DNA of 64,000 bases, taken from positions 1 through 64,000 of the forward strand of contig NZ_JAJTWT010000018.1 of NCBI RefSeq assembly GCF_021353235.1, in the 5' to 3' direction. The first letter of the stretch is position 1; every line of letters starts with the position of its first letter. The notes below the pieces were generated by a model that was not told the DNA's origin, made no database searches, and worked only from the letters and a program-made list of their open reading frames with translations. Made by a program: the position numbers and the translations under genes. Shown one piece after another: positions 10,452 to 25,605 of the stretch. The DNA is from Pelomonas caseinilytica. Its GTDB lineage: Bacteria > Pseudomonadota > Gammaproteobacteria > Burkholderiales > Burkholderiaceae_C.

Positions 10452-12035
10452 CTAGCGCAGCTGCGCCTCGAACAGCAGGGCCAACTGGCTGGCGATGAGC
10501 AGCTCCTGCCGCGTCCAGGCGCGGGTGGCGTGGCCGTCCACCAGCCAGAGGGCGCCGGCCAGCCGGTCGCCAGCGTACAGCGGCACCTCGATGCGGGCCT
10601 CGGCCGAGCCCGCCAGGCCGGACAGCTCGGCATGGCAGGGGTGCAGGGCGGCGTCGGGCAGGGCCAGGGGCGCGCCATGGCGGCCCAGGAGGTCCAGATA
10701 ACGGGGATGTCGGCCGGCATCCAGGCCGCCCTCGCCGAGGCGCCAGTGCACCACCCGATCGAGGCCCAGGATGCGCGTGGCCGCCGCCTTCAGCTCGGCC
10801 AGCGCCTCTGACGGCGGCGCGCCGGCCAGCCGCTGCCGTTGGCCGCACAGGTGCAGCAGCAGCTCCTCGGGCGTCACGGGAGCGCCCGCGTCGTCGGCCG
10901 GCGGCGCCGCCAGCGTGGCGCGAGCCGGCAGGCTCAGCTTTTCAATTTCGGACTGCAGGGCCAGGTGTTGCCAGAGGTGCTCCAGCGCCCCGGCCGCATC
11001 GCCCTCGGCCTGCAGCAGTTGCGCCAGCTGCAGGTGGGCCTGGCGCGCCTGGGCCCGGGCCTGGATGCGCTGGGCCAGGGCCAGCGCATGGCGGGTGGAG
11101 CGCACGGCGGCAGCGTTGTCGCCACGGGCCAGGGCGATCTCGGTCCAGGTGCGGCTGGCAGCCGCCTCCAGCCAGGGGTAGCCCTGGCGGGCGGCGATGT
11201 CCAGGGCCAGCCGGCAGTCGGCCACTGCCCAGTCCATGCGCTGGCGGGCGAGGGCGGCCCGGGCCAGATGCCAGTGCGCCTCGGCCTCGAAGACGCGATG
11301 GGCGCCACGCCGCGCTGCCGCCAGCCCATGGCTGAAATGCCGCTCCGCCGCCGGCAGGTCGCCGGTCTCGAAGCTGCCGACGCCGATGTTGAGCGCCAGC
11401 TTGGCGGCCAGGTAGCTGTCGTCGATGCCGGCGATCTTGAGCTGCTCGCCGGCATCGCGCATCTGTCGCAGCCCGCGCGCCCAGTCGGCCTGCGCGTAAT
11501 GGATCTGGCCCAGGCCGATGCGTGCGGCCACGCCGGTCTGCCCATGGCCGCTGACCTCCGCGAGGTCGAGGGCGCGGGACCACTGCTCACTCGCGAGCTG
11601 GTACTCGCCTTGCTGGTAGGCGATGCGGCCCAAGGCCTCGCACACGCGCGCAGCCTGGATGGGGAAATGCCCGGCCACGGCCAGCGCGCCGCCCTGCTCC
11701 AGGGCCGGCAGCAGCTCCAGCGCCCGCCCGCGCGGTTCCAGCAGGCCGAAGCGTGCGTAAAGCGCATCCACCGCGGAAGCGGTGTCGCCCGCGGCGAAAG
11801 CCTGGGCGCTGAGGGCGTCCAGCAAGCGCTCCGCGAGGCCGGCATGGCGGCGCGCGACCCGGCCGATGCGTTCGAGCAGCTCGGCCAGGGCATCGCTGGC
11901 CGCGGGGTGAAGGGTAAACAAGGCGCTGTCGGGTTGGTTTCTGACTGGTATTCTTGTCCATTCCGGCGCTGCGCTGTCCTGCCTAGGGGACAGTCCGTAG
12001 CTCGCACCGGTGGCCGTGGACCAGTTTAAAACCAA
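10452..12035 (-). CDS. TPR-rich protein with C-terminal GAF-like domain, unknown role
   Basis: Up to 527 residues. Residues ~100-370 are a helical array of tetratricopeptide-like repeats (AYQQGEYQLASEQWSRALDLAE, then more repeats of similar length). The last ~150 residues resemble a weak GAF-type sensor domain ending ELLIASQLALLFEAQ. No DNA-binding, kinase or nucleotide cyclase motif is visible. The start is uncertain: the frame opens with TTG at 12035, inside a predicted operator, so a downstream start such as TTG near residue 40 is possible. It is divergent from the GlcNAc kinase operon and its 5' end touches the shared operator region, so co-regulation is plausible. Similar TPR-GAF proteins often accompany diguanylate cyclase modules, absent here. 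Confidence 0.6.
   Translation of the reverse strand: MVLNWSTATGASYGLSPRQDSAAPEWTRIPVRNQPDSALFTLHPAASDALAELLERIGRVARRHAGLAERLLDALSAQAFAAGDTASAVDALYARFGLLEPRGRALELLPALEQGGALAVAGHFPIQAARVCEALGRIAYQQGEYQLASEQWSRALDLAEVSGHGQTGVAARIGLGQIHYAQADWARGLRQMRDAGEQLKIAGIDDSYLAAKLALNIGVGSFETGDLPAAERHFSHGLAAARRGAHRVFEAEAHWHLARAALARQRMDWAVADCRLALDIAARQGYPWLEAAASRTWTEIALARGDNAAAVRSTRHALALAQRIQARAQARQAHLQLAQLLQAEGDAAGALEHLWQHLALQSEIEKLSLPARATLAAPPADDAGAPVTPEELLLHLCGQRQRLAGAPPSEALAELKAAATRILGLDRVVHWRLGEGGLDAGRHPRYLDLLGRHGAPLALPDAALHPCHAELSGLAGSAEARIEVPLYAGDRLAGALWLVDGHATRAWTRQELLIASQLALLFEAQLR
12019..12035 (-). promoter_or_regulatory. Predicted GntR operator, copy A
   Basis: On the minus strand this reads TTGGTTTTAAACTGGTC: two TGGT half-sites in direct repeat, 11 bp apart. 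It shares TGGT, A9, A11 and TGG with copies at 12052-12068, 25166-25182 and 25271-25287. It lies immediately upstream of the -35 hexamer of the kinase operon. Confidence 0.55.
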
Positions 12036-12064
12036 TTGACCACCTTGGGTTTTGGTATTAGAGT
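12036..12064 (+). promoter_or_regulatory. Predicted sigma70 promoter of the GlcNAc operon
   Basis: TTGACC (12036-12041), 17 bp, TAGAGT (12059-12064). The -10 lies inside operator copy B and the -35 abuts operator copy A, the geometry of repression by occlusion. The expected start of transcription (~12071) falls at the first candidate ATG (12072), so the transcript may be leaderless. Confidence 0.45.
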
Positions 12065-12068
12065 GGTA
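12052..12068 (+). promoter_or_regulatory. Predicted GntR operator, copy B
   Basis: TTGGTATTAGAGTGGTA, nearly identical to the copy before the TonB receptor (25271-25287, 15 of 17 bases). It covers the -10 hexamer of the kinase operon. Confidence 0.65.
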
Positions 12069-12071
12069 TCG

Positions 12072-12998
12072 ATGTTGCCGCCATCAGCCATGCCGCTCGT
12101 TCTCGACCCCTCCCTCGTGACCTCCCGCGACTCCGGGAGGGCCGTGCGCTGGTGGGTCGGGATCGATGGTGGCGGTACCAGCACTCGCGCGGTGGTCGCG
12201 GACGCCGCCGGGCGCGTGCTGGGGCGCGGTGAATCCGGAGCCTCTGCTCTCGGCCAGGGTGCAGAGCAGGCATGGCGGCACATCGCCGACGCCGTCGCCC
12301 GGGCTGGCGTGAGCGGTGTGGCGTTGGAGGACTGCGCCCTCGGCCTCGGCCTGTCCGGCACCGGCGTGCCGGCGCAGCTCGAGGCCTTCGTCGCGGCCGA
12401 TCCCGGCGTGGCGCGCTTCGGCCTGGTCACCGACGGCCTCGCCGCCCTGCTGGGCGCCCATGGCGGTCGGCCCGGGGCGCTGCTGATTTCCGGCACCGGT
12501 TCCGTGGCCGAGGCCCTGTTGCCGGATGGCAGCCGCCGCCTCGTCGGTGGCTGGGGCTGGCAGATCGGCGACGAAGGCAGCGGCGCCTGGCTCGGCCAGC
12601 AGGCCATGAAGCTCGCCCAGGCGGCCTACGACGACCGCGCGCCGGCCGGGCCGCTGGCGCAGGCGGTGTGGCGGGAGGTGGGCGCCACGCGCGAGGCCCT
12701 GCTGGCCTTTTGCGCCCGGGCCGGCCAGGCCGGCTACGCCAGCCTCGCGCCACTGGTGTTCGAGCACGAGGCCGCGGACGCCGCCGCCGCGAGCCTGCTC
12801 GATGCCGCCGCGCGCGCCTTGGAAGCCCTGGCCGTGGCCGTCCATCCCACCCTGCCGCTGGCCCTGGCCGGCAGCATCGCGCTGCGCCTGGGGCCCCGCT
12901 TCGGACCGGCCGTGCAGGCGCGGCGAATCGAGCCCCAGGGCGATGCCGCCGTCGGCGCCCTGCGGCTGATCCAACCACGAGAAAACCCAAACGCATGA
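12072..12998 (+). CDS. BadF/BadG-family sugar kinase, probable N-acetylglucosamine kinase
   Basis: A ~308-residue ASKHA-fold kinase. The phosphate-1 motif is GIDGGGTSTRAVVAD near the N-terminus, phosphate-2 is LISGTGSVAEA, and VGGWGWQIGDEGSGAWLG is the segment typical of N-acetylglucosamine kinases of the BadF/BadG/BcrA family (human NAGK-like). It would phosphorylate imported GlcNAc at C6 to feed NagA. It is the first gene of the operon; its stop overlaps the gntR start (ATGA). ATG 12072 is used, but ATG 12090 is also possible: neither has a clear ribosome binding site. No transmembrane segment; cytoplasmic. Substrate assignment rests on neighbours. Confidence 0.8.
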   Translation: MLPPSAMPLVLDPSLVTSRDSGRAVRWWVGIDGGGTSTRAVVADAAGRVLGRGESGASALGQGAEQAWRHIADAVARAGVSGVALEDCALGLGLSGTGVPAQLEAFVAADPGVARFGLVTDGLAALLGAHGGRPGALLISGTGSVAEALLPDGSRRLVGGWGWQIGDEGSGAWLGQQAMKLAQAAYDDRAPAGPLAQAVWREVGATREALLAFCARAGQAGYASLAPLVFEHEAADAAAASLLDAAARALEALAVAVHPTLPLALAGSIALRLGPRFGPAVQARRIEPQGDAAVGALRLIQPRENPNA

Positions 12999-13723
12999 GC
13001 GCTGTCTTCGACTTCAAGCCGGACCCGAATGCCGCGTCGCCGCTGTACATGCAGCTGGCGCAGAGCCTGGCCCAGGCCATCCGCGACGGCATCTTCCACA
13101 CCGACGAGGCGCTGCCCAGCGAGCGCGTGCTGGCCGAGCAGCTGGAGCTGTCGCGCGTGACGGCCCGCAAGGCCATCGACCGCCTCGTCGAGCAAGGCCT
13201 CATCATCCGCAAGCGCGGCTCGGGCAACTACATCGCCCCCAAGCTGGAGCAGCCGCTGACCCGCCTGACCAGCTTCTCCGAAGAGCTGCACCAGCGCGGC
13301 TTCGTGCCCAGTTCGCGCTGGCTGCTGCGCGGCTTCACGCCCGCGGCGCCGGACGAGCAGCTGTCCCTGGAGCTCAAGAGCGGCGAACGCGTGGCCCGGC
13401 TGGAGCGGCTGCGGCTGGCCGATGCCGTCGTCATGGCCTACGAGGTGTCGGTGCTGCCCCAGTCCGTGCTGCCCGACCCCCAGAAGGTCGAGGCCTCGCT
13501 CTACACCCACCTGGGCGAGCGGGCGCCGGTGCGCGCGCTGCAGCACATCCGCGCCCTCAATGCGGACGCCAAGCTCGCCGGGCTGCTGGAAGTGCCCCTG
13601 GGCGCCGCGGTCCTCTTCATCACCCGCGTGGGCTATCTGGCGTCTGGCCAGGCGGTCGAGCTGACCCACTCCTACTGCCGCAGCGACTACTACGACTTCG
13701 TCGCCGAAATGCGCAGGGATTGA
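12995..13723 (+). CDS. GntR/HutC-family transcriptional regulator of the GlcNAc regulon
   Basis: A 242-residue regulator. The N-terminal winged helix (PLYMQLAQSLAQAIRDGIF, LPSERVLAEQLELSRVTARKA, LIIRKRGSGNYIAP) is followed by a UTRA effector domain (from ~residue 90: LTSFSEELHQRGFVPSSRWL, ending THSYCRSDYYDFVAEM). HutC-type relatives such as NagR/YvoA, DasR and NagQ sense amino sugars or their phosphates and repress uptake and catabolic genes. It overlaps the kinase by 4 bp and nagA by 1 bp. The TGGT-repeat operators upstream of its own operon and of the TonB receptor are its likely targets. Confidence 0.88.
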   Translation: MSAVFDFKPDPNAASPLYMQLAQSLAQAIRDGIFHTDEALPSERVLAEQLELSRVTARKAIDRLVEQGLIIRKRGSGNYIAPKLEQPLTRLTSFSEELHQRGFVPSSRWLLRGFTPAAPDEQLSLELKSGERVARLERLRLADAVVMAYEVSVLPQSVLPDPQKVEASLYTHLGERAPVRALQHIRALNADAKLAGLLEVPLGAAVLFITRVGYLASGQAVELTHSYCRSDYYDFVAEMRRD

Positions 13724-14871
13724 TGGCGCCCTCCGGACACGCTCCAGTCACCCTCGAGGGCGACCTGGTCACACCGCAAGGCTGCCTGCAGGGCCGCCTC
13801 GAGATCGAGCATGGGCGCATCGTGGCGTTGGCGGGCGAGCCCATCGACCCCGCGCGTGCCGGCGAAGGCGGCCGGCCCATCCTGCTGCCGGGCTTCGTGG
13901 ACACCCACGTGCACGGTGGGGGTGGGCGGGACACCATGGAGGGCGGCGATGCCATCCAGGCCATCGCAAGGCGACACGCCCGGCACGGCACGACCGCCCT
14001 GCTCGCCACGACGATGACGGCGCCCGTCGAGCAGATCGAGCAGGCGCTGCGGGCCATCGGGCCGGTGTGCCGCGAACGCGGCACCCAGGCGGCGCGGGTC
14101 GTCGGCGTGCATCTCGAAGGGCCCTACATCAACCCCGACCGCCTCGGCGCCCAGCCGGCCCATGCGGCCCTGGCCACGCTCGGCGAAGTGCTGCGTCTGC
14201 ATGCCCTCGCGCCCATCAAGGTGCTGACCCTGGCACCCGAAGTGCCCGGCCACCTGGCCCTCATCGGTCCGCTGCGGGAGGCCGGCATCCGCGTGCAGGT
14301 CGGCCACAGCAATGGCAGCTACGACGACGGCGTGGCGGCCCTGCGGGCTGGCGCGGCCGGTTTCACCCACCTCTTCAACGCCATGAGCGCGCTGCACCAC
14401 CGCGAGCCCGGCATGGTGGGCGCGGCCCTGGCCCATGCGCAGCATGCCGAGCTCATCCCCGACCTGCTGCACGTGCATGCCGGCGCCATCCGCGCCGCGT
14501 TGCGCTGCATCCCGGGGCTGTTCTGCGTGACCGACTCGACCGCCGCGGCCGGCATGCCCGACGGTGAATACCGCCTGGGCGAGCACCGGGTGCAGAAGTG
14601 CCTGGGCGGCGTGCGCCTGCCCGACGGCACGCTGGCCGGCAGCGCCCTGACCATGGACCGGGCCCTGCGCAATCTCGTGCAGCGCCTGGGCCTGCCCCTG
14701 CACGAGGCCGCGCGCCGCGTGTCCACGGTGGCGGCGCAATACCTGGGCCTGGCAGACCGTGGGCGCCTCGCCCCGGGCGCCTGGGCCGACGTGGTGGTGA
14801 TGGACGCCGGGCTTCAGCTGCGGCGCGTGTTTGTGGAAGGTGAAGAGATCGATGTCGTCGCTGATGCTTGA
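13723..14871 (+). CDS. nagA: N-acetylglucosamine-6-phosphate deacetylase
   Basis: A 382-residue amidohydrolase that removes acetate from GlcNAc-6-P. The metal-binding HVHGGGG (H62, H64) follows LPGFVDT; further motifs are VVGVHLEGPYINP (metal Glu), QVGHSNG and THLFNAMSALHHREPG (metal and substrate His), and FCVTDSTAAAG with the catalytic Asp. The C-terminal small domain ends with LAPGAWADVVVMD. The length matches the family. Its ATG overlaps the gntR stop (TGATG) and it overlaps the next gene by 20 bp, so translation is probably coupled. It acts after the kinase and before NagB-II. Confidence 0.95.
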   Translation: MAPSGHAPVTLEGDLVTPQGCLQGRLEIEHGRIVALAGEPIDPARAGEGGRPILLPGFVDTHVHGGGGRDTMEGGDAIQAIARRHARHGTTALLATTMTAPVEQIEQALRAIGPVCRERGTQAARVVGVHLEGPYINPDRLGAQPAHAALATLGEVLRLHALAPIKVLTLAPEVPGHLALIGPLREAGIRVQVGHSNGSYDDGVAALRAGAAGFTHLFNAMSALHHREPGMVGAALAHAQHAELIPDLLHVHAGAIRAALRCIPGLFCVTDSTAAAGMPDGEYRLGEHRVQKCLGGVRLPDGTLAGSALTMDRALRNLVQRLGLPLHEAARRVSTVAAQYLGLADRGRLAPGAWADVVVMDAGLQLRRVFVEGEEIDVVADA

Positions 14872-15874
14872 GGAGGCGCTGAGCGCGCCGGACGCGGTGG
14901 CCCGCCAATTGGCGGCCGACCCGCTGAGTTACGCCCGCCTGGGCCAGGCCCTGCAGGAGAGGCCGCCGACGAGCGTGCTCACCATCGCGCGTGGCAGCTC
15001 CGACCACGCCGCCCACTACCTGGCCTACCTCGTCATGGCACGGCTGGGCCGTCTGGTCACGTCGCTGCCGATGTCGCTGATCACCCTCTACCAGAGCCGC
15101 ATCCACTGCGAGGGCCTGTTGTCCCTGGCCTTCTCTCAATCGGGGCAGAGCCCCGACCTGATCGAGCCGACGCGGTTTTTCCGCGAAGGCGGCGCCCGCA
15201 CCGTGGCCTTCGTCAACGCCAGCGGCTCGCCGCTGGCCGCCGCGGCCGAGCACGTGTTCGAGCTGCACGCCGGGCCCGAGAAGAGCGTGGCCGCCACCAA
15301 GAGCTACATCGCCCAGCTCGTGGCGGGGGCCCGCGTCGTGGCGGCCTGGCAGCGGGACGACGCGCTGCGGGCCGCGCTGAACGTGCTGCCGATGGCGCTC
15401 GAACAGGCGGCCAGGCTGGACTGGAGCGCCGCCCTGCCCGTGCTGCAGGGAGCGGACCGCCTCTTCGTGCTGGGTCGCGGCACGGGCCTGGCCGTGGCCA
15501 TGGAGGCGGCCCTCAAGCTCAAGGAGACCTGCGGCATCCAGGCCGAGGCCTTCTCGGGCGCCGAGGTCAAGCACGGCCCCATGGCGCTGGTGCGGGACGG
15601 CTATCCGCTGCTGGTGTTCGCGCCGCGCGGGCCGGCCCAGGCCGGGCTGCTCGCCATCGCCGAGGAGATGCGCTCGCGCGGCGGCCGCGTGCTGCTGGCC
15701 GCGCCCCTCGGGACGCCTGGCGTCGAGCTGCCGCTGGTGACCACCGGCAACGAGGACCTCGATCCCATCGCCCTGGTGCAGAGCTTCTATCCCATGGTCG
15801 AGGCCCTGGCCCGCGCCCGCGGCTTCGACCCGGACGTGCCGCCGAATCTCGCCAAGGTCACCAAAACCCATTGA
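14852..15874 (+). CDS. SIS-domain glucosamine-6-phosphate deaminase, NagB-II type
   Basis: A 340-residue protein with two SIS sugar-isomerase domains, like the C-terminal half of GlmS without its glutaminase domain. Visible are ARGSSDHAAHYLAYL, LAFSQSGQSPDLIEP, EKSVAATKSYIAQL, LGRGTGLAVAMEAALKLKE and AEAFSGAEVKHGPMALV. In proteobacterial nag operons this family (NagB-II) replaces the unrelated classical NagB and turns GlcN-6-P into fructose-6-P plus ammonia. Its start lies inside the end of nagA, and GGAAGGTGAAGAG lies upstream. Absence of the glutaminase domain and the operon context argue against amino-sugar synthesis. Confidence 0.88.
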   Translation: MSSLMLEEALSAPDAVARQLAADPLSYARLGQALQERPPTSVLTIARGSSDHAAHYLAYLVMARLGRLVTSLPMSLITLYQSRIHCEGLLSLAFSQSGQSPDLIEPTRFFREGGARTVAFVNASGSPLAAAAEHVFELHAGPEKSVAATKSYIAQLVAGARVVAAWQRDDALRAALNVLPMALEQAARLDWSAALPVLQGADRLFVLGRGTGLAVAMEAALKLKETCGIQAEAFSGAEVKHGPMALVRDGYPLLVFAPRGPAQAGLLAIAEEMRSRGGRVLLAAPLGTPGVELPLVTTGNEDLDPIALVQSFYPMVEALARARGFDPDVPPNLAKVTKTH

Positions 15875-15904
15875 GGCTGTCATGAGCACAATGAAACTTC
15901 GAGC

Positions 15905-16090
15905 CGAGCGCCGGGCCGCCACAAGCCGGCCCGCCATGGCGATGTGCTCGCGGCTGGATGCCGCGAGCATCGCCATCCCCTCGGGGGCTGAGGCTGGACA
16001 TGGCCAGGCCGGTGGCCTGGCCTTGCCTGCCGAAGGGGCGCGGCAGGAGCCGCGTCGCGGCCTGCAAGGCCGATCGATGTACTCATCGAG
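15905..16090. repeat. Chain of about six hairpins between nagB-II and the GH3 gene
   Basis: The 227-bp gap is almost wholly self-complementary. The clearest stem pairs 15936-15954 with 15960-15976 (17 bp with a 2-nt bulge, 5-nt loop). Others are 15913-15932 (6 bp), 16002-16010 with 16014-16022 (perfect 9 bp), 16026-16032 with 16041-16047 (7 bp), 16058-16062 with 16068-16072 (5 bp) and 16074-16079 with 16084-16089 (6 bp). No T run follows, so it is not a classic terminator. A short frame (15882-16109) shows no family features. It looks like a mosaic intergenic repeat or a structured mRNA spacer that could set the ratio of flanking genes. Confidence 0.6.
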
Positions 16091-16101
16091 CGAGGGGCAT
16101 C

Positions 16102-17568
16102 ATGTTTGAACCAGGCCGCCTCGTGATGGTCGACATTCCCGGCACGTCGCTGGACACCGAGACGGCCGCCTTCCTGCGCGAGCAGAAGATCCGCTCGGTC
16201 TGCCTGTTCCGCAAGAACCTCGGCACCGAGGAAGAGGTGAGGGCGCTGGTGCGCGACCTCGCCGCGGTGCTCGGCCCCGAGGCCTTGATCGGCATCGACC
16301 AGGAGGGCGGCGCCGTCGTGCGTGCCACCTTCCTGCCCCAGCCTCCCTCGGCCATGGCGCTCGGCGCTGGCGGCGATGCCGCTCGCGCCGAGGCGGTGGG
16401 CGCGGCGGTCGCTCGCGGCCTCAAGTCCCTGGGCATCAACTGGAACTTCGCGCCGGTGCTGGACGTCAACAACAACCCGGCCAACCCGGTCATCGGCGAG
16501 CGCAGCTTCTCGAACGACCCCATCGAGGTGACCCGGCTGGCCGGCGCGTGGATGCGCGGCTCCCTCGGCGAGGGCGTGGCCTGCTGCGTCAAGCACTTCC
16601 CCGGCCACGGCGACACCCACGTCGACTCCCACCATGCCCTGCCCACGGTGGACAAGTCGCGCGCCGAGCTCGACGCGCTGGAGCTCGTGCCCTTCAAGGC
16701 CCTGGCGGCCCAGGCGCCGGCCATGATGACGGCCCACATCGTCTATCCGCAGATCGACCCCGACCGACCCGCCACGCTGTCGCCGCAGCTGCTGCGCGGC
16801 ATCCTGCGCGACGACTGGGGCTACGACGGCGTCGTCATCACCGACGCGTTGATGATGAAGGCCGTGGCCGACCGCTTCGGCTACGCGCGCTCCGCCGTCA
16901 TGGCCATCGAGGCCGGCGCCGACATGGTGCTGGCCCAGGGTTCGAAAGCCGAGCAGCTCGTCGCCATCGACGCCCTGCGCGAAGCCTTCGCCGATGGCCG
17001 GCTGACCCGCGCCCAGGGCGAGGCGGCCGATGCGCGCCTGGACCGCCTGGCCGCCGCCTACCCGGCCCGTGCCGTGGACGATGGCGCGGCCCGCGCCGCC
17101 GACCATGCGCTGATGGCCGAGGCCTGGGCGGCGGGCCTCACGGCGCTGCGAGGCGCACGGCCGCCGGCCCTGGGCCAGCCCATCCGCGTCATCGTGCAGG
17201 GCGACGTGCCGACCGACATGGTGTCCGAAGCCGGCCCCACCGGCCGCCAGGCCGTGGCCCTGTTCGCCGCCTTCACGGACGCGCAGGTCCAGATGGTCGA
17301 CGACATCGCTCAGCTCGACTGGGCCAGCGTGCCGCGCGACGGCCGCCTCAACGTCCTGGTGTCCACGCGCCGGGCCCGTTATGGCCTCGCCGCCGCCGGC
17401 TGGCGGCCCGACCTCCACCTCGCGCTGTGGAACCCCTTCCAGGCCCTGGACGTGGCCGGCCCGACCGTGCTGACCTGGGGCTTCGCGCCGGGGGCACTGG
17501 CGGGGCTCAAGGCCTGGCTGGAGGGCCGCGCCGAGGCCGGCGGCCGCGCGCCGCAAGGGTTGCAGTGA
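16102..17568 (+). CDS. GH3 beta-N-acetylhexosaminidase (NagZ-like, two-domain)
   Basis: A 488-residue GH3 enzyme. The KHFPGHGDTHVDSHH motif (164-178) carries the Asp/His acid-base dyad typical of NagZ-type N-acetylglucosaminidases. The catalytic nucleophile is Asp248 in VVITDALMMK. It is ~140 residues longer than E. coli NagZ; the extra C-terminal part (from ~residue 350) is an alpha/beta domain as in two-domain GH3 enzymes. No signal peptide (MFEPGRLVMVDIPGTSL), so it acts in the cytoplasm, releasing GlcNAc from imported chito-oligosaccharides; a role on muropeptides is possible. The start follows GAGGGGCATC, after the hairpin gap. Its stop overlaps the MFS start (TGATG). Confidence 0.9.
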   Translation: MFEPGRLVMVDIPGTSLDTETAAFLREQKIRSVCLFRKNLGTEEEVRALVRDLAAVLGPEALIGIDQEGGAVVRATFLPQPPSAMALGAGGDAARAEAVGAAVARGLKSLGINWNFAPVLDVNNNPANPVIGERSFSNDPIEVTRLAGAWMRGSLGEGVACCVKHFPGHGDTHVDSHHALPTVDKSRAELDALELVPFKALAAQAPAMMTAHIVYPQIDPDRPATLSPQLLRGILRDDWGYDGVVITDALMMKAVADRFGYARSAVMAIEAGADMVLAQGSKAEQLVAIDALREAFADGRLTRAQGEAADARLDRLAAAYPARAVDDGAARAADHALMAEAWAAGLTALRGARPPALGQPIRVIVQGDVPTDMVSEAGPTGRQAVALFAAFTDAQVQMVDDIAQLDWASVPRDGRLNVLVSTRRARYGLAAAGWRPDLHLALWNPFQALDVAGPTVLTWGFAPGALAGLKAWLEGRAEAGGRAPQGLQ

Positions 17569-18842
17569 TGCAGGCCCGCACGCCGATGCGGTGGGTGCCG
17601 ACCCTGTACTTCGTGCAGGGCATGCAGTTCTTCGTCGTCATGCTCATCGCGGGCCTGATGTTCAAGAACCTGGGCGTGGCCAACGACCAGATCGCCCGCT
17701 GGACGGCCGTGCTCGGCCTGGCCTGGGCCATCAAGCCGCTGTGGAGCCCCTTCCTGGAGCTGGCCCGCAGCAAGAAGCTCATCGTCGTGGCGACGCAATA
17801 CGTGGGCGCCGCGGGCCTGGGCCTGATGGCCCTGGCCCTGCACCTGCCGCACTGGTTCGGCGCGGCCATCGTGGTGCTCTTCCTGATCGCCTACGCCTCG
17901 GCCACCCACGACATCGCCTGCGACGGCCTCTACATGGCCTCGCTGGACGACAAGCGCCAGGCGGCCTACGCCGGTTGGCAGGGCGCCTTCTTCAACGGCG
18001 CGCGCTTCTTCATCACCGGCGTGGTGCTCAAGCTGGCGGGCTACCTGGAGGGGCAGGTGGGCGTGTTCAACGCCTGGTCCGGCGTGTTCCTCATGCTGGC
18101 CGTGCTGGTGGCCGTGCTGGCGACCTACAACGCGCGCTTCCTGCCCGGCGCCTTGAGCGCCGCCCCGAGCGCCGGCACTGCGGCCGGCGTGGCGGCCATG
18201 CTCAGGGACGTCGTCGTCGACTTCTTCCGCAAGCCGGGCATCTGGCGCGCCGTGCTCTTCATCGTCATGTTCCGCTTCGCCGAAGGGCAGGTGCAGACCA
18301 TCGGGCCGCTCTTCCTGCTGGAGGCGCGCGACAAGGGCGGGCTGGGGCTCACGACCGGCCAGGTGGCCGATGTCTACGGCTGGGTGGGCACGGGCGCCTT
18401 CCTCGTGGGCTCGGTGCTCGGCGGCTGGGTGACGAGCCGGCTGAGCCTGCGGCGCGCGATGCCCCTGCTCGTCGTGGCCATGGGCGTGCCCAACGCCACC
18501 TTCTATTACCTGGCCGCGGCGCTGCCCCAGGACATGCTGCACATCGGCGTCGCCGTCGGCGTGGAGATGTTCGGCTACGGCTTCGGCTTCGTCGGCATGA
18601 TCCTCTACATCATGCAGGCCGTCGCGCCCGGCCGCTTCCAGACGGCCCACTATGCGCTCGGTTCGGGCGTCATGCAGCTGGGCTTCGTCTTCAGCAAGTC
18701 CATCAGCGGCGACGTCCAGCTCGCCATGGGCTACCGGCATTTCTTCGCCTGGACCATTGCCTGCGGGCTGCCGGCGCTGCTGCTGCTGTTGTGGGTGCCG
18801 ATGCCGCGGGCGCGCGGCGGCGCCGAGGCGGTGCCGGCATGA
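17568..18842 (+). CDS. MFS transporter, AmpG-like, predicted chito-oligosaccharide/GlcNAc permease
   Basis: A 424-residue protein with about 12 hydrophobic helices. The first loop has LGLAWAIKPLWSPFLE and the fourth helix region has ATHDIACDGLYMASLDDKRQAAYAGWQG, a pattern related to AmpG/PAT-type MFS proteins that carry GlcNAc-containing muropeptides. It lies between the GH3 hexosaminidase (1-bp overlap) and the secreted GH16 enzyme (4-bp overlap), so it is the likely inner-membrane step for sugars taken in by the TonB receptor. Substrate is inferred: no transporter signature distinguishes GlcNAc, chitobiose or anhydro-muropeptides. Confidence 0.75.
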   Translation: MQARTPMRWVPTLYFVQGMQFFVVMLIAGLMFKNLGVANDQIARWTAVLGLAWAIKPLWSPFLELARSKKLIVVATQYVGAAGLGLMALALHLPHWFGAAIVVLFLIAYASATHDIACDGLYMASLDDKRQAAYAGWQGAFFNGARFFITGVVLKLAGYLEGQVGVFNAWSGVFLMLAVLVAVLATYNARFLPGALSAAPSAGTAAGVAAMLRDVVVDFFRKPGIWRAVLFIVMFRFAEGQVQTIGPLFLLEARDKGGLGLTTGQVADVYGWVGTGAFLVGSVLGGWVTSRLSLRRAMPLLVVAMGVPNATFYYLAAALPQDMLHIGVAVGVEMFGYGFGFVGMILYIMQAVAPGRFQTAHYALGSGVMQLGFVFSKSISGDVQLAMGYRHFFAWTIACGLPALLLLLWVPMPRARGGAEAVPA

Positions 18843-19684
18843 AGCCGCTGCCGCTGCTGCTGGCGCTGGCCGCCCTGCCAGCCTGGGCAGGCGGCGAATT
18901 CTTCGACGACTTTTCGCAGAAGGACCTCGACGGCCTGCGCGCCGATGGCTGGGTGCTGCGCGAGGGCAGCGGCCACCCCGGCCTGCCGGGCGCGCGCTTC
19001 GCGCCGGGGCAGCTGTCATTGGAGGGCGGGCTGCTGAGCTTGCGGCTCAGCACTGACGGCCGGCCCGAGCACACCACGCTCGCCCAGCTCTGCGGGCCGC
19101 GCAAGTTCCTCGTCGGCACCACGGCAGCCCGCGTGCGGCTGCGCGACACGCCCGGCTCGCGCGATCCCGTCATCCAGAGCTTCTTCCTCGCCGGCCCGCT
19201 GCGACACGACTACGACCCCGATTTCAGCGAGGTCGACTTCGAATACCTGCCCCACGGCGGCTGGGGCGAGCCCGAGACGCGGCTGTACGGCGTCAGCTGG
19301 CACACGGTGCGGCTGGACCCTTGGGAGTCCTTCAACCAGGCGTCCATCGTGCAGGGATCCTTCGACGGCTGGCAGTTGCTGACGGTGCAGGTCGAGGCGA
19401 CGCGCACGCGCCACTATGTCAACGGCCGGCTGATCGGCGAGCACACGGGGCGCAACGTGCCGAGCCAGCCCATGGCCATCGCCTTCAACCACTGGCTCTC
19501 TGCCGGCGCCGCCGAGGGCGAGCCGCGCAGCCACGAATTCGAGGTCGACTGGGTGCTGCACGAGGCCGGCAGGACGCTCACGCCCGCCGCCATGCAAGCC
19601 CGCGCCGACCAACTGAAGCGTCAGGGCCGGGCCCGCGTCGACACCGTGCCCGATTCAGGGCTGACCAGTGAATGCAACTTGTGA
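18839..19684 (+). CDS. Secreted GH16-family glycoside hydrolase
   Basis: A 281-residue protein with a signal peptide (MKPLPLLLALAALPAWAGG) followed by a jelly-roll GH16 domain. The catalytic signature is FSEVDFEY with nucleophile Glu131, Asp133 and acid/base Glu135: the ExDxE spacing seen in the beta-bulge-free GH16 branch. The family cleaves or transfers beta-1,3/1,4-glucans and related polymers; fungal members link chitin to glucan. Its ATG overlaps the MFS stop (ATGA) and the GH18 gene starts 7 bp after its end, so the three are co-transcribed. Presence beside a chitinase suggests attack on mixed fungal cell wall polymer; the true substrate cannot be read from sequence. Confidence 0.8.
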   Translation: MKPLPLLLALAALPAWAGGEFFDDFSQKDLDGLRADGWVLREGSGHPGLPGARFAPGQLSLEGGLLSLRLSTDGRPEHTTLAQLCGPRKFLVGTTAARVRLRDTPGSRDPVIQSFFLAGPLRHDYDPDFSEVDFEYLPHGGWGEPETRLYGVSWHTVRLDPWESFNQASIVQGSFDGWQLLTVQVEATRTRHYVNGRLIGEHTGRNVPSQPMAIAFNHWLSAGAAEGEPRSHEFEVDWVLHEAGRTLTPAAMQARADQLKRQGRARVDTVPDSGLTSECNL

Positions 19685-19691
19685 GGCAGGG

Positions 19692-20915
19692 ATGAAGGCT
19701 AGCGAACACGGCCACGGAGGCACGGAGGCACAGAGGCAGCGAAAGCCCTTTCTCTCTGCGGCTTTGTGCCTCGGTGGCTTTGTTTTGTCTTTGTGGGCGG
19801 GGCCGAGCGAGGCCGAGGTGGCGCGCCCCGTCGTCGGCACCTACGTCCTGGCCGAGCGTGGCGTCGACGTCGTCGACCGATTGCCGCCGGGGCGGGTGAC
19901 CCATCTGCTCTATGCCTTCCTGCTGGTCTGCGGCGAAGGCCAGCGCGCGTCGGAGGCCGAGGCCTGCCGCGGCCAGCCGAACTTCGGCATTGCGCCGCAT
20001 CCCGACCAGGCGAGGTTCACCGCGGCCTTCGAGCGGCTGAAGGCGCGTGATCCGCAGGTGAAGGTGCTGGCCTCGGTGGGCGGCTGGGGCGGTTCGGACC
20101 CCTTCTTCCACCTGGCGGCCACGGCCGAGGGGCGGGCCGCCTTCGTGGGCGCCGCCATGCGCTGGCTGCGCGAGCACCCGGTCTTCGACGGCCTCGACAT
20201 CGACTGGGAGCACCCGGGCTCCAACGGCGCCGTCAACGGCGTGGCGCTGGGCAGCCCGGCGGATGCCGGCAACTACGTGCGGCTGATGCAGGACCTGCGT
20301 GCGGGGCTGGATGCGCTCGGCCGCGAGATGGCTCCGAATGGGGGCAGGCGCTATGCGCTGACCACGGCGATCGCGACCACGCGCGAGCAGCTCGCCCGCA
20401 TGGACATGGGCCGCGCGGCGGCGTCGCTGGACCTGGTGTTCATGATGACCTACGACTTCGCCGGGCCGTGGACGAAGCAGGCGGCCCACCACACGCCGCT
20501 GCGCAGCGCGCGCCCCGGCGAGGACGGCAGCCTCGAGGCGTCGGTGGCCAACCTGCTGCGAGACGGCGTGCCGGCGGACAAGCTCGTGGCCGGCGTGGCG
20601 ATGTACGCGCGCGGCTTCGACGGCGTGCAGGCCGACCGAAGCTATGCCCGCCCCTGGCCCAACGAGGACGGCTCGCTGGCCTTCAAGGACATCGGCGGCC
20701 TCGTCGGCATGAAGCCGCGGTTCGACAAGGCCACGCAATCCTGGGCGCTGGTCGGCGGCGGGCGCTTCGTGGGCTACGACGACCCGAGGGCGGTGCGCGC
20801 CAAGCTGGCCTTCGCCAGGCGCCAGGGCCTGGCCGGCGTCTTCGCCTGGGAGCTCAGCCAGGACAACGGCGAGATCCTGGACGCGATGAACGGCATTCGT
20901 CCGGCCGCGAGATGA
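19692..20915 (+). CDS. Secreted GH18 chitinase
   Basis: A 407-residue GH18 enzyme. The catalytic motif DGLDIDWE (166-173) is complete, with Glu173 as proton donor. Further GH18 markers are KVLASVGGWGGSDPF (SxGG motif), FMMTYDFAGPW and a C-terminal GVFAWELSQDNG (conserved Trp). A hydrophobic stretch at residues 20-37, with possible cleavage after SEA (41), serves as signal peptide. The DNA encoding residues 3-36 is an intergenic repeat (19700-19800), so the signal appears repeat-derived. No carbohydrate-binding module. RBS GAGGCAGGG precedes ATG 19692. Probably last-but-one gene of the operon. It would cut chitin outside the cell into oligomers for the TonB receptor. Confidence 0.92.
   Translation: MKASEHGHGGTEAQRQRKPFLSAALCLGGFVLSLWAGPSEAEVARPVVGTYVLAERGVDVVDRLPPGRVTHLLYAFLLVCGEGQRASEAEACRGQPNFGIAPHPDQARFTAAFERLKARDPQVKVLASVGGWGGSDPFFHLAATAEGRAAFVGAAMRWLREHPVFDGLDIDWEHPGSNGAVNGVALGSPADAGNYVRLMQDLRAGLDALGREMAPNGGRRYALTTAIATTREQLARMDMGRAAASLDLVFMMTYDFAGPWTKQAAHHTPLRSARPGEDGSLEASVANLLRDGVPADKLVAGVAMYARGFDGVQADRSYARPWPNEDGSLAFKDIGGLVGMKPRFDKATQSWALVGGGRFVGYDDPRAVRAKLAFARRQGLAGVFAWELSQDNGEILDAMNGIRPAAR
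19700..19800. repeat. Dispersed-type intergenic repeat (CACGGAGGCACAGAGG family) fused to chitinase start
   Basis: The segment consists of CACGGAGGCACGGAGGCACA, a short spacer, then a roughly complementary arm containing TTTGTGCCTCGGTGGCTTTG and TTTGTCTTTGTG. This is the typical look of the AC/AG-rich inverted repeats scattered between genes in many bacteria. Here it is in frame with the chitinase and encodes residues 3-36. Its base composition (T-rich lower arm) differs sharply from the surrounding high-GC DNA. Confidence 0.65.
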
Positions 20916-20979
20916 CGCCGGCCCCCGTGCCCGAGGTTTTGCGCGGCGCGCCCGCCCGGCGGTGTTGAAGGAGGATGGC

Positions 20980-22002
20980 ATGCAGGCGATGCGGGAATTG
21001 GCCGGCGTCACGTGCGAGCGCTTCGAGCGCGAGGTGCTGCCCGCTTACGAGCCGGTGGTGATGCGCGGCCTGGTGGCCGGCTGGCCCCTGGTCGCCCAGG
21101 GCCGTGCGGGCCTGGAGCCCTGCCTGCGCTACCTGATGGGCTTCGACCTCGGCCGGCCGGTGGATGCCCTGCTCGCGCGGCCCGACCCCTCGCGCGCCTT
21201 CGGCTTCGCGCCGGGCCTGGACGGCTTCAACTTCGCCCGCGACAAGCGCCCCTACGCGGCCCTGTTCGAACAGCTTTGGCGCTACAGCCACTTTCCCGAA
21301 CCGCCCAGTCTGGCGGCGCAGAGCGCGCTGGTGGCGGAGGCCCTGCCGGGCCTGGAACAGGCCAACGCCTGCCCGCTGCTGGACGCGACCGTCGCGCCGC
21401 GCATCTGGATCGGCAACCGCGCCACGGTGCCGGCGCATTTCGACGACTCCCACAACGTCGCCTGCGTGGCCGCCGGCCGGCGCCGCTTCACGCTGCTGCC
21501 GCCGCAGTGCGCGCCACGGCTCTACCTGGCCGCGCCCGACCATGCGCCCACCCCCGCGCCCATGTCGGTGGTGCCCGATCTGCTCCAGGCCGACCCGGCG
21601 CGCTTTCCCCTGCTGGCCGAGGCGCTGCCGCAGGCCCGCGTGGCCGAGCTGGAGCCGGGCGACGCGATCTACATCCCGCCGCTGTGGTTCCACCAGGTCG
21701 AGGCGCTGGCGCCCCACCTGAACGTGCTGATGAACTACTGGTGGCGGCCCGAGGCCGCATCGGGCCGGCGCGACGACCTGCATCTCGCCGCTCTGCGCCT
21801 GGCGATGCTGGCCCTGCGCCACCTGCCCGACGGCGAACGCGAGGGCTGGCGGGCCCTGTTCGACCACTACGTGTTCGGCGCGCGCGGCGAGGCGCTGGCG
21901 CATATCCCCGAGGGGCAGCGCCACCTGTTCGGCGAACTCGACGTGGAGCGGGACGCAGCCTTGCGCAAGGACATCGCCGCGCGGCTCGGCGCCGGCGGCT
22001 GA
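20980..22002 (+). CDS. Cupin-like (JmjC/cupin_8) domain protein of TonB-receptor loci
   Basis: A 340-residue protein with a JmjC-like double-stranded beta-helix. The iron-binding pair is in AHFDDSHNVACVAAGRRRF (H153, D155), followed by TLLPP. The second half has LEPGDAIYIPPLWFHQVEAL, giving the distal His, then NVLMNYWW. Members are predicted 2-oxoglutarate/Fe(II) hydroxylases and recur beside Caulobacter/Xanthomonas-type TonB receptors for plant and chitin sugars, but their substrate is not known. AAGGAGG sits 5 bp before ATG 20980. It follows the chitinase by 64 bp and converges on the TonB receptor across a terminator. It may modify the receptor or a locus enzyme; that is speculation. Confidence 0.8.
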   Translation: MQAMRELAGVTCERFEREVLPAYEPVVMRGLVAGWPLVAQGRAGLEPCLRYLMGFDLGRPVDALLARPDPSRAFGFAPGLDGFNFARDKRPYAALFEQLWRYSHFPEPPSLAAQSALVAEALPGLEQANACPLLDATVAPRIWIGNRATVPAHFDDSHNVACVAAGRRRFTLLPPQCAPRLYLAAPDHAPTPAPMSVVPDLLQADPARFPLLAEALPQARVAELEPGDAIYIPPLWFHQVEALAPHLNVLMNYWWRPEAASGRRDDLHLAALRLAMLALRHLPDGEREGWRALFDHYVFGARGEALAHIPEGQRHLFGELDVERDAALRKDIAARLGAGG

Positions 22003-22137
22003 GGCTCACCAGAGGTAAAGCTGCAGGGGCGAGGACCGACAGGTCCCCGTGCTGTTGGCCTGGATGTCAGGGCGTGTACGTCAGTGTCCAGACCGGCCGG
22101 CCGTTTTGGTTGGTCGAGGTTCCTCCTCAGGCAAACA

Positions 22138-22161
22138 AAGGAAGCGCCGCAGCGCTTCCTT
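22138..22161. terminator. Bidirectional terminator between cupin gene and TonB receptor
   Basis: Perfect 10-bp stem AAGGAAGCGC / GCGCTTCCTT with a 4-nt loop, located 50 bp past the receptor stop (minus strand) and 135 bp after the cupin gene. Flanking A/T-rich sequence on both sides (CAAACAAAGG and TTCAATTGATT) would support termination in either direction. Confidence 0.7.
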
Positions 22162-22211
22162 CAATTGATTGCCGAACCGCGCCAGGGCAGAGTGCCCGGC
22201 GGATTCATTGA

Positions 22212-25019
22212 TCAGAACTTCAGACGTGCGGTCAGGTAGAACTGACGGCCGTTGCGGTAGATGCCGCGCGGCTGGACCTCCGACGCGTAGTACTTCAGCT
22301 TCGGGTCGTTGAGGTTTTGCGCATCCAGGCTCAGCGCGAAGTTGCTGTTGAACTTGTAGCCGAGCGACGCGGACAGCACGCCGTTCCCCTTCTGGTAGTA
22401 GTCGGTGCCGCGGTCGGTGCCGATGAAGATGTCGTCGGTGTAGCTGTAGTTCACGCGCGCCGAGAACTGGTCGTTCTCGAAGAATCCGCCCAGGGTGAAG
22501 GAGTTCTTCACGTCACCGCGCAGCACGTGGCCATCGGCATCGTGGCCGTCGGCGTAGGTGTAGTTGGCGTTGACGCCGAAGTTGTTCGCGATCGGCGTCT
22601 CGAATGCGAACTCCAGGCCGGTGACGGCGGCCTTCTTGTTGGTCAGGCCCGTGATCGTGAATTGACGGTTGACCACCTGCTGGGTGGAGCCGCCGCCGGT
22701 GTTGCCGAGCAGGACCGGGTAGGTGGCGCTGAACGTGCCATTGGTGATGTAGCTGGCCATCTCCATGTGGAAGGCGCCCATGGACACGAAGGCGCGCGGG
22801 GCGAAGTACCACTCGATGTTGGCGTCGAAGTTGGTGGAGCGGATGGGCTTGAGGTCGGCATTCCCTGCCGTACCGCCGCCGCTGGCGTTGTTGTCCAGGA
22901 ACATGCCGGTCGTGTTCAGCGACGTGAAGGCGGACAGGGCCGTGTAGTCTGCGCGCGTGACCGTGCGGCTCAGGGCCAGTCGGCCGACCACGTTGCGGGT
23001 CACGTCGATGCGGACGCTGGCGCTCGGCAGCAGGTCGGTGTAGCTCCGGTCGGCCGTCGTGGCGGTGAAGTCGCCGAACGCGGACGACACATCCGGCTTC
23101 TCGCCCGGGAAACTGGGCCGGAAGGCGCCGGAAGACTGTTTGGTGTGCACGGCCCGCACGCCGATGTTGCCGCTCCAGCCGTCGCCCTCGAGATTGCCTT
23201 GCAGGTAGGCTGCCGTGGTCGTTTCCTTGACGCTGTATTCCCCACCGTCGAAAGGCGAACGGCGGGCGATGGGGTCGCGGTTGGTGACGCGGCTGTTGTA
23301 TTCGGCCAGCGCGTTGGCCGGGATGTAGGCGATGCCGGTCGGGAAGCCGCCGCCCAGGCCGCTGCCGAAGTTGCCGGGATAGGCTCCGCTGAATGCGGGC
23401 AGGGTGTAGGGAGAGTTCTGCGGGGCGTCGTTGCCATTGGCGTCGGCGCAGGCGCTCGGCAGGCTCCAGGTAAAGGGTGTCACGCGGTAAGGCGTGCCGC
23501 TCGCGCAGCCGGGGCCCTGGTTGAGCGTCGCATCCGTGTATCGCTTGTGCTCGGCGCCGCGCACGCCGAACTTCAGGCTCTTGAGAGCCCCCATGTCCAG
23601 GGTGTACTCGCCGTCGACCTGGGCCCAGGTCTCCTTGTCGTGCACGATGACGTGCTCCGTGCCGAAGATCCAGTCGAAGCCCTGGGTCGGCGTGGTGAAG
23701 CCGAAGGCCGGCGCCGTGTCATTGCCTTGAAGGGCATAGCTGGCCCGGGTGGTGGAAATGTGGGTCTCCACCACGTCTTGGGCGAGCGTCTGGCCCTTGC
23801 CCTTGGACGTGCCGGCGTTCGCGGAGAGCGTCAGCGCGTTGTTGACCTTCCAGGAGCCATCCAGGCTGAAGAAGTTGCTTTGCGCGGAGGCCTTGCGCGA
23901 GATCTGGTCGAAGTAGCCGGCCGTCGAGGGGGCCGCCCAGTTGAACGTCGCCTTGCTCAGCGTCTTCACGCCCTTGCTGTCGGTGACGATCTGGTAGTCC
24001 GAGATGGTGGAGCTGTTGATCAGGCCGGCACGCGGCGCAATCATGTAATTGCGGTTGTAGTTGTCCGCGTCCATCTTGGACGAGAAGCCGGTGAGCGTCA
24101 GGTCCACGTCCTGCGTCGGCTTGAATTCGGCGCGAATCAGGCCGCCCTTGCGTTCACGCTCCTGCGTGAAGTAGGCGGCGCCGATCAGGTCCGGGGTGTA
24201 GACGCCTTCCAGGTCGCCGTGAGCCTTGATCAGGTCGGCGGCGTTGTCCTTGGTGAGCTGATTGATGAAGCCCAGCGTTTCGACGCCGTCGCGGCGCAGG
24301 TGGCGCTTTTCGGAGAACGCCTGCACGAGCACGCCGAAGGTCTTGCTGTCGTCGCGCCAATTGAGCAGCGCGCTCAGTTGAGGGTCGGTCTTCTTCGGCA
24401 GGTTGGCATAGACGGCGCCCACGCCGGCTTCGAAAGTCAGCGCCTTGGAGAACTCCAGGGGCTTGCGGGTGATGATGTTGACCGAGCCGGCCGTGCCGCC
24501 TTCCACCAGCGACGCCTCCGCGCTCTTGCGCACCTCCACGCGGTTGACCAGCTCGGAAGGTAGCAGCGAGTAGCTGACGCTGCGGCCGACGCCGGCGCCG
24601 GTCTGGTCCAGCACGAACCAGTCGCCGTTGGCGATGCCGTGGCCGTCCAGCAGGGTCTGCGTCAGGCTCGGGTTGGTTCCGCGCAGCCCGACCCGGTCGC
24701 GCTCGTCGAAGCCACCGGAGCCTCCGGCGGGGCTGTTCAGGATGGTCACGCCAGGCACCCGCGCCAGGGAGTCGGCGACGTTCTTGTCGGGCATCTTGCC
24801 GATGTCTTCGGCCGAGATGACGTCGATGTGGGTGTCGGCATTGCGCTTGACGTTCAGGGACTTTTCCTGCGCAGCGCGGATGCCGGTCACCACGACCGTC
24901 TCCAGCTGTTGCTGCTGCGCCGGTGTCTGCTGGGTCTGCTGGGCAATGGCGGCACCGCTGGTGGCGCCAAGCAGGGCGATGAGAACCGCCTGCGAGATGG
25001 GGGTCTGCTTGACCTTCAT
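22212..25019 (-). CDS. TonB-dependent outer membrane receptor, predicted chito-oligosaccharide uptake
   Basis: A 935-residue receptor of the Xanthomonas/Caulobacter type. The signal peptide is followed by a Gln-rich linker, then a TonB-box-like ETVVVTG. The plug domain contains IDVISAEDIGKMPDKNVADSLARVPG, RGTNPSLTQTLLDGHG and VEGGTAGSVNIITRKPL. The C-terminal ~700 residues form the 22-strand barrel, ending in Phe (LTARLKF) as outer-membrane proteins do. Such receptors import chito-oligosaccharides in Caulobacter and Xanthomonas nag regulons. Start ATG 25019 has GAGGAAC upstream; a longer open frame lacks family similarity. Two GntR operator-like repeats lie 147-268 bp upstream, shared with the kinase operon. 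It needs TonB/ExbBD from elsewhere. Confidence 0.9.
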   Translation of the reverse strand: MKVKQTPISQAVLIALLGATSGAAIAQQTQQTPAQQQQLETVVVTGIRAAQEKSLNVKRNADTHIDVISAEDIGKMPDKNVADSLARVPGVTILNSPAGGSGGFDERDRVGLRGTNPSLTQTLLDGHGIANGDWFVLDQTGAGVGRSVSYSLLPSELVNRVEVRKSAEASLVEGGTAGSVNIITRKPLEFSKALTFEAGVGAVYANLPKKTDPQLSALLNWRDDSKTFGVLVQAFSEKRHLRRDGVETLGFINQLTKDNAADLIKAHGDLEGVYTPDLIGAAYFTQERERKGGLIRAEFKPTQDVDLTLTGFSSKMDADNYNRNYMIAPRAGLINSSTISDYQIVTDSKGVKTLSKATFNWAAPSTAGYFDQISRKASAQSNFFSLDGSWKVNNALTLSANAGTSKGKGQTLAQDVVETHISTTRASYALQGNDTAPAFGFTTPTQGFDWIFGTEHVIVHDKETWAQVDGEYTLDMGALKSLKFGVRGAEHKRYTDATLNQGPGCASGTPYRVTPFTWSLPSACADANGNDAPQNSPYTLPAFSGAYPGNFGSGLGGGFPTGIAYIPANALAEYNSRVTNRDPIARRSPFDGGEYSVKETTTAAYLQGNLEGDGWSGNIGVRAVHTKQSSGAFRPSFPGEKPDVSSAFGDFTATTADRSYTDLLPSASVRIDVTRNVVGRLALSRTVTRADYTALSAFTSLNTTGMFLDNNASGGGTAGNADLKPIRSTNFDANIEWYFAPRAFVSMGAFHMEMASYITNGTFSATYPVLLGNTGGGSTQQVVNRQFTITGLTNKKAAVTGLEFAFETPIANNFGVNANYTYADGHDADGHVLRGDVKNSFTLGGFFENDQFSARVNYSYTDDIFIGTDRGTDYYQKGNGVLSASLGYKFNSNFALSLDAQNLNDPKLKYYASEVQPRGIYRNGRQFYLTARLKF

Positions 25020-25165
25020 GGAATGTTCCTCGTTATGGCCGATGAAATCGTGGGCAGGCGGTGGCTGCTTTCGCTTCAGTTGCATACCACCTTCAGTCCG
25101 GTGCGCGGAGCGGAGCCTTCTCGGTGCTTCCGCGTCCAGTGCCATGCCACTTTAACGATTGATAA

Positions 25166-25182
25166 AGCCACTTTGCTACCAG
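25166..25182 (-). promoter_or_regulatory. Predicted GntR operator, copy D (weaker)
   Basis: Minus strand CTGGTAGCAAAGTGGCT: keeps TGGT, A9, A11 and TGG with the same 11-bp half-site spacing as the other copies. It lies 147 bp upstream of the receptor start. Confidence 0.45.
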
Positions 25183-25270
25183 TTTCGAACGAGGGGTTTC
25201 CCCAGTGTCCTCAGGGAGTGGCTCGGTTCGGGGCTTCCTCTTCTGTGGAGCTGACGTTTGCGGCCGTAAA

Positions 25271-25287
25271 TTGGTATTAGATTGGTT
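25271..25287 (+). promoter_or_regulatory. Predicted GntR operator, copy C
   Basis: TTGGTATTAGATTGGTT, 15 of 17 bases identical to copy B in front of the kinase-gntR-nagA operon 13 kb away. Unlike its flanks it is AT-rich. It lies 252 bp upstream of the TonB receptor. Confidence 0.65.
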
Positions 25288-25555: not shown

Positions 25556-25605
25556 AGACCTGCAGCGTGCTGGGGTCGAGGAAGGGCAGTTGCAAGGCTC
25601 CCAGG

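Follow-up and report, generated by a model that had tools for sequence, protein, structure and literature searches.

Among regulators of the HutC family, NagQ is described as an exception with direct repeats of TGGTATT, a statement that the available portion of Suvorova et al. (2015, PMC4494728) makes citing Yang et al. (2006). In the accessible part of Leyn et al. (2016, PMC5343134), the NagQ motif is given as a tandem repeat, NagQ is assigned to alpha-, beta- and some gammaproteobacteria, and chitin genes are recorded in some of its regulons. In NagR, the base-reading residues are Arg38, Arg48 and Gly69 (available sections of PMC4333415), and in NanR a repeat is read by a single domain of the dimer, which takes up an asymmetric pose (available sections of PMC8012715). 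Here we analyse a stretch of 64,000 nucleotides from Pelomonas caseinilytica (contig NZ_JAJTWT010000018.1, positions 1 to 64,000; the window), in which direct-repeat sites stand before a nagK-gntR-nagA-nagB operon and before a TonB-dependent receptor gene. Judged from the DNA and its relatives, these sites are very probably operators of the HutC/GntR regulator encoded at 12995–13723, which would be a NagQ-type repressor of N-acetylglucosamine (GlcNAc) and chitin use.

Reading the sequence directly, we found the four motif copies that a first-pass annotation had reported at the positions and on the strands it gave: A (TTGGTTTTAAACTGGTC, 12019–12035, minus strand) and B (TTGGTATTAGAGTGGTA, 12052–12068, plus strand) before nagK, and C (TTGGTATTAGATTGGTT, 25271–25287, plus strand) and D, here also D1 (CTGGTAGCAAAGTGGCT, 25166–25182, minus strand), before the receptor gene. 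B and C are identical at 15 of 17 positions, as it had claimed, and the same putative direct-repeat operator does occur both at the promoter of the kinase-gntR-nagA operon and in the receptor control region, with conservation in relatives. Within the window, TGGTNNNANANTGG is present four times, once in each of these copies, where 0.18 occurrences would be expected; none of 100 shuffles had that many. A scan of the whole genome (5,980,893 bases in 40 contigs) returned B and C as the sole matches to the strict motif at up to two mismatches (control 0), and the strict motif was matched in 18 of 20 genus genomes, this one included (control 0 in all). All 22 exact matches to a looser pattern in those 20 genomes lie at the cluster's B place (18) or C place (4). 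Several congeners also share two one-mismatch matches located elsewhere, TTGGTGACGTACTGGTA and TTGGTGGCCGAGTGGTA in slightly varying form (for example, at G002:C1:632287 and G001:C56:21973), which are possibly conserved coding sequence.

For comparison we used 80 loci fetched solely through homology to the regulator (P0001). A B-type site lies 700–1300 bp upstream of the regulator gene in 67 of them; some of the 13 others end at a contig end, some are variant (L066, L067 and L069) and the rest have no match by that search expression. The three variant loci, of Rhizobacter type, carry downstream of the nag cluster a divergent regulator-receptor pair like that of the paralogue described below. 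A 'distant' set comprises the 29 best-matching places with loci, excluding this genome; their regulators are 45–62% identical to P0001 and none belongs to the same family.

At nagK, the sites interlock with the promoter. The TTGACC-TAGAGT pair is the lone promoter-like match in 11900–12150, and its −35 box (TTGACC, 12036–12041, plus strand), identified by conserved spacing and the consensus scan, lies 17 bp upstream of the −10 box (TAGAGT, 12059–12064, plus strand). The −10 box falls inside B, the main putative operator, at motif positions 8–13, and A abuts the −35 box. TTGAC precedes the −10 box in 65 of the 67 relatives, at 17 bp (35) or 18 bp (30), and is missing from two; removing these two and the repeats leaves 54 distinct nagK promoters. 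In the tally of B sites, positions 2–4, 11 and 13–17 were preset by the search expression and are uninformative on conservation, whereas position 9 had been left free. All 54 B sites have A at this position, compared with 21 of the 54 A sites, 3 of the 17 C sites and 2 of the 33 distinct distant sites. The first-pass annotation had counted A9 among the shared operator bases; because it is constant in B and not in A, C or the distant sites, we read it as a base of the −10 box; the half-sites 11 bp apart are supported. The A at position 11 is partly an operator base, on a tally of 48 among the 54 A sites, all 17 C sites and 16 of the 33 distant ones.

Site A has GG in both halves in 40 of the 54 promoters. 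Further upstream, 118 bp from B, lies O3, a distal operator-like direct repeat (TTGGTTTCTGACTGGTA, 11934–11950, plus strand). Of the 67 relatives, 33 have an O3-type site that scores 10–11 of 11 at 91–159 bp upstream of B, 16 of these 33 belonging to the near-identical genus group; the reversed control gave none in 67. A TTGGTTTC-type copy lies near B in 17 of 20 genus genomes. We do not claim O3 as part of a phased loop, as its distance to B varies from 91 to 159 bp. The divergent gene at 10455–11921 (minus strand), which encodes a tetratricopeptide repeat-containing protein, starts close to O3 in the genus. In 34 of the 54 promoters the first ATG comes 8–10 nucleotides past the −10 box, predicting leaderless or nearly leaderless mRNA; the likely start of nagK here is further downstream, at 12090 (relatives were compared over 12052–12092), an ATG kept in most of the genus rows listed.

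The receptor control region carries a comparable set of sites. Translation of the receptor most likely starts at 25019, with D some 147 bp and C some 250 bp before the start codon. In an alignment of 17 orthologues, whose N-terminal regions are 80–100% identical, every sequence has the C core TGGT-N5-ATTGG, though its flanks are not conserved; TGGTA and CAAAGTGG of D1 are invariant. D1 covers the expected −35 region. Downstream lie a putative −10 box (TAAAGT, 25149–25154, minus strand), represented as TANAGT or TACATT in all 24 promoter rows, and the putative operator D2 (GTGGCATGGCACTGGAC, 25134–25150, minus strand) over the −10 end and +1. D2 lies 32 bases beyond D1, overlaps the box and has GG at both halves in 24 of 24 promoters. 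A degenerate putative operator in the leader, D3 (CCGGACTGAAGGTGGTA, 25085–25101, minus strand), keeps GG and GTGGT unchanged, 11 bp apart, throughout the alignment of 17 sequences. The rows were drawn from 30 loci with the D1 flank, of which 26 were used (four with three mismatches were excluded) and 24 fit the D1 expression. Across the 20 genus genomes, D1 plus flank at up to three mismatches gave 40 matches (control 18): the 27 at up to two mismatches all lie before receptors found there, several genomes having two such, and the 13 at three mismatches all lie elsewhere, not before those receptors.

The distance between C and D1 is restricted. The best reverse-oriented C lies 94–95 bp (3) or 104–110 bp (20) upstream of D1 in 23 of 24 promoters; the remaining one has no good C, and forward-oriented controls score at most 6 of 12. 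At locus L230 the distance is ambiguous because another site, observed in L192, overlaps at an offset of 11 bp. A phase test under a uniform null gave 0 of 20,000, a null that ignores the kinship of the 23 promoters; because they are related, we give the distances and claim no probability for the phase. This spacing, kept in a stretch that is otherwise poorly conserved, suggests two operators on one helix face that cooperate, with the same reservation about kinship. Beyond C follow tRNA-Tyr, tRNA-Gly and tRNA-Thr genes (plus strand, 25471–25828), and several congener contigs end shortly after.

How many of these sites are operators is the question on which a rival account fares best. The operators could be B, C and perhaps D alone, with A, O3, D2 and D3 as conserved promoter or leader elements of other function; we consider this a real possibility, though clearly the less likely one. 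The D1/D2 block is conserved beyond its half-sites, as expected of a core promoter, A has no GG pair in 14 of 54 promoters, the O3 score falls short of 10 of 11 in 34 of 67 relatives, and CGG replaces TGG of D3 in most rows. Against it, half-sites at the 11-bp period recur in A, O3, D2 and D3 alike, and the high-scoring O3 sites (33 of 67) have no counterpart in their control.

The regulator itself has the two domains of the GntR/HutC family, a GntR winged helix-turn-helix at the N-terminus and UTRA at the C-terminus (PF00392, 61.8 bits; PF07702, 113.7 bits; both above cut-off). Among solved structures, NagR/YvoA (E = 2e-33) and DasR (E = 6e-26) come closest to it. The counterparts of NagR Arg38, Arg48 and Gly69 are Arg44, Arg54 and Gly75. 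As these base-reading residues equal those of NagR, the difference between the two, and with it any distinct HutC-type binding mode such as the first-pass annotation suggested, should lie in the arrangement of half-sites. The pocket residues Ser88, Phe89, Arg133, Arg135, Glu145, Ser165, Tyr167, Ile209, Arg211, Glu222 and Ser226 of NagR are identical here, and alignment mapping gives Ile166 to Leu as one of the differences. On this comparison the half-site matches that of NagR, and the effector probably does too.

The sites also accompany this regulator across wide evolutionary distances. Relatives at E = 1e-45 or better were found in 61 of 398 phylum genomes (this one included). Regulators at 95–98% identity come from Roseateles/Pelomonas (Burkholderiales) plus a few metagenome-assembled genomes labelled otherwise. 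The regulator gene is linked to nagA and nagB in the window (nagK-gntR-nagA-nagB), as described for NagQ, and tblastn over the 80 loci found nagA in 77 and nagB in 78. Among the distant loci, 23 of 29 have a site at up to one mismatch in 11 operator positions against 2 in the control; at up to two mismatches of 11 there is no separation (27 of 29 against 23 of 29). Of 34 plasmid records with a regulator homologue, six alphaproteobacterial regions were read: three of them, from Sinorhizobium meliloti pSymB and two Ruegeria, show the order nagK-gntR-SIS(nagB)-nagA, a site at up to one mismatch is present in four, and S. meliloti and Ruegeria TM1040 have full 11-of-11 direct repeats before nagK. 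It is this association that makes it improbable that another regulator reads the motif and that the local gene is not, or not solely, responsible. A candidate for such a role is a paralogous GntR gene (G000:C12:670640-671344, 41% identical), which has the direct repeat TTGGTTCGCAATTGGTA 102 bp ahead of its matched coding region, so cross-talk is possible; against this, the 11-bp repeat follows P0001 relatives at the distant loci and B sits in the promoter of P0001's own operon. The paralogue stands directly before a second TonB receptor (46%), the pair occupying G000:C12:670521-672561 (L191, about 7522–9562).

The same loci define the geometry of the repeat. Counting direct TGGTA pairs in the 29 distant loci gave 34 with an 11-bp spacing and 5 with a 22-bp spacing, the other spacings up to 45 bp averaging 0.37. 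No spacing in that range had more than 2 head-to-head pairs, and for the reversed half-site ATGGT the spacings listed do not include 11 bp. The distant and family loci are partly related, so these pair counts are not independent events. In the 33 distinct distant sites, T stands at position 18 in 30 and at position 19 in 27, and because neither position was used in selection the second half can be read as TGGTATT as well; with the 11-bp peak, these sites thus show the TGGTATT direct repeats described for NagQ. This leaves very little room for the proposal that the motif is a degenerate DasR/NagR palindrome (GT-N4-AC) and its direct repeat a product of chance. Many B sites do contain GTATTAGAC, which comes near GT...AC, but with five bases between rather than four; position 12 is variable (C in 30 and G in 24 B sites, T in the listed C sites), TGGT-N4-ACCA occurs in 3 of 29 distant loci as a single site each, and TT recurs at positions 18–19. 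On the pair spacing and the TGGT-N4-ACCA search we reject it. Chance likeness of AT-rich promoter stretches in a GC-rich genome, to which the −10 box inside B and the loose scans at control level might point, is contradicted by the conservation, spacing and linkage tests and deserves almost no credence.

Several results nonetheless weigh against the assignment to a NagQ-type repressor and its operators. First, in the genome-wide scan that the first-pass annotation proposed, an excess is seen for the strict motif and not for looser ones: in this genome one looser pattern gave 8 matches against 20 for its reversed control and another 4 against 6, and over the 20 genus genomes a loose pattern gave 96 against 102 in sum. 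The four matches of the second looser pattern in this genome are O3, B, C and the site before the matched coding region of the paralogous GntR gene. Because these counts do not exceed their controls, the case for the weaker copies is one of position and conservation, and we claim no further targets. Second, two of the 20 genus genomes have no strict match, and in 200 family genomes at up to one mismatch the motif was found in 41 and the reversed control in 21, which is weak evidence. Third, the shorter half-site TGGT gives a weaker peak, with 39 pairs at 11 bp and 33 at 3 bp in the distant set and 11 bp ranking third in a 63-locus family set. Fourth, Ruegeria sp. B32 has AAGGTA-type variants and two-mismatch sites alone, their count not above control, and 8.7 kb of an Asticcacaulis locus, where the homologue is more distant and TonB receptors but no nag genes are visible, contain no site. 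Fifth, the pocket differs from that of NagR at Thr90 (Ser), Ala224 (Thr) and Tyr228 (Cys) by alignment mapping, and the 25 NCBIfam matches listed, all below cut-off, include none named NagQ. Finally, the consensus scan of the receptor promoter found no promoter-like pair and no recognisable −35 box.

The genes under these sites make up a chitin and amino-sugar cluster. On the plus strand, nagK (12090–12998) encodes a BadF/BcrA-type N-acetylglucosamine kinase (PF01869 above cut-off, NF046058 below) and is followed by the NagQ-type GntR/HutC regulator gene (12995–13723; GntR and UTRA domains), nagA for GlcNAc-6-phosphate deacetylase (13720–14871; TIGR00221 above cut-off) and nagB-II for a SIS-domain glucosamine-6-phosphate (GlcN-6-P) deaminase (14831–15874; SIS; NF046059 at 267 bits, cut-off 430). 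The names nagK and nagB-II are drawn from domain and context because the NCBIfam models stay below their curated cut-offs. Next on the same strand come genes for a glycoside hydrolase family 3 (GH3) beta-N-acetylhexosaminidase (15958–17568; NF003740 above cut-off), a major facilitator superfamily (MFS) transporter with an approximate start (17600–18842; PF07690 at residues 353–715 of frame 16548–18839), a GH18 chitinase-like protein (19668–20915; PF00704) and a Cupin_8/JmjC-like protein (20962–22002; PF13621); frame 17591–19681 has no family match. The receptor gene of this chitin/GlcNAc cluster (22212–25019, minus strand; TIGR01782 above cut-off, start set by signal peptide and orthologues) is convergent to the rest.

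The sequence shows the sites themselves, their spacing and conservation and their overlap with the boxes of the nagK promoter; from this arrangement we infer how binding, the direction of repression, the effector, looping and the receptor promoter would fit together. Each operator would be a TGGTATT direct repeat whose 11-bp period lets its two GG steps face almost the same way on the helix. In the nagK promoter, repressor bound to B would cover the −10 box and repressor bound to A would abut the −35 box. The core promoter of the receptor gene would be bracketed by D1 and D2, and perhaps D3, with probable cooperation through a DNA loop from C, some ten helical turns further upstream (around nine in a few relatives). 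When amino sugar is absent, RNA polymerase would be blocked at both promoters; GlcN-6-P or GlcNAc-6-phosphate, made by NagK and NagA from imported sugar, would then bind the UTRA domain and free the repressor. One repressor would in this way tie outer-membrane uptake of chitin sugars to GlcNAc breakdown in a group of environmental Burkholderiales.

How the protein sits on its repeats may follow one of two geometries, by analogy with other regulators: one head-to-tail dimer per repeat pair, or two dimers one turn apart, each in an asymmetric pose like that of NanR dimers on tandem GGTATA. Triple TGGTAT-type repeats in 11-bp steps occur at L182, L185 and G145:C6:95834-95861, and L175 has one with a degenerate unit. 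Such triples suggest that the single repeat is the binding unit, and those of L182 and L185 are compatible with one dimer per repeat in a NanR-type array and may somewhat favour two asymmetric dimers. More speculatively, and with considerable doubt on our part, a head-to-tail array could be envisaged in which each TGGTATT docks one dimer asymmetrically with the recognition domain unchanged, units at 0, 11, 32 and 43 bp of the receptor promoter lie in phase on one face across the polymerase site, and the inverted C closes a loop nine or ten turns upstream. Within the searched literature, as far as its texts were available, we found no answer to how a GntR/HutC dimer reads direct repeats, and this locus offers a test case, since NagR, with the same three base-reading residues, binds palindromes.

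Set against the systems in print, the locus has neighbours on several sides. NagR (YvoA) of Bacillus subtilis and DasR of Streptomyces share the GG half-site, and their GlcN(Ac)-6-phosphate pocket is mostly conserved here, whereas NagR binds (imperfect) palindromes whose half-sites stand six bases apart (available sections of PMC4333415) and the sites described here are direct repeats at 11 bp; the scarcity of TGGT-N4-ACCA among the distant loci likewise separates them from the NagR/DasR layout. NanR of Escherichia coli, a FadR-subfamily protein, likewise uses tandem repeats (GGTATA) in amino-sugar catabolism, but differs in subfamily and C-terminal domain, and its dimers lie about half a turn apart rather than a full turn (available sections of PMC8012715). 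Closest are the NagQ regulons, which, in the portions of those papers available to us, share the GntR/HutC family, GlcNAc catabolism and TGGTATT direct-repeat operators. Because such repeats and a chitin-sugar regulon are in print for NagQ, both the kind of motif and the kind of regulon are already known: the first-pass proposal of a chitin/GlcNAc regulon under the neighbouring HutC/GntR repressor is well supported, and the direct-repeat layout is not new. The architecture of individual promoters did not appear in the literature searched, which was available in part and excluded subscription papers and RegPrecise. Compared with the NagQ regulons as far as their descriptions were accessible, this locus has the −10 box inside B, A set against the −35 box and the spaced C-D pair, together with the extra sites O3, D2 and D3 and, in Roseateles/Pelomonas, the TonB receptor as a putative target. 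On this sequence comparison, the layout of NagQ-type sites around two promoters is an addition of detail to a known kind of regulation.

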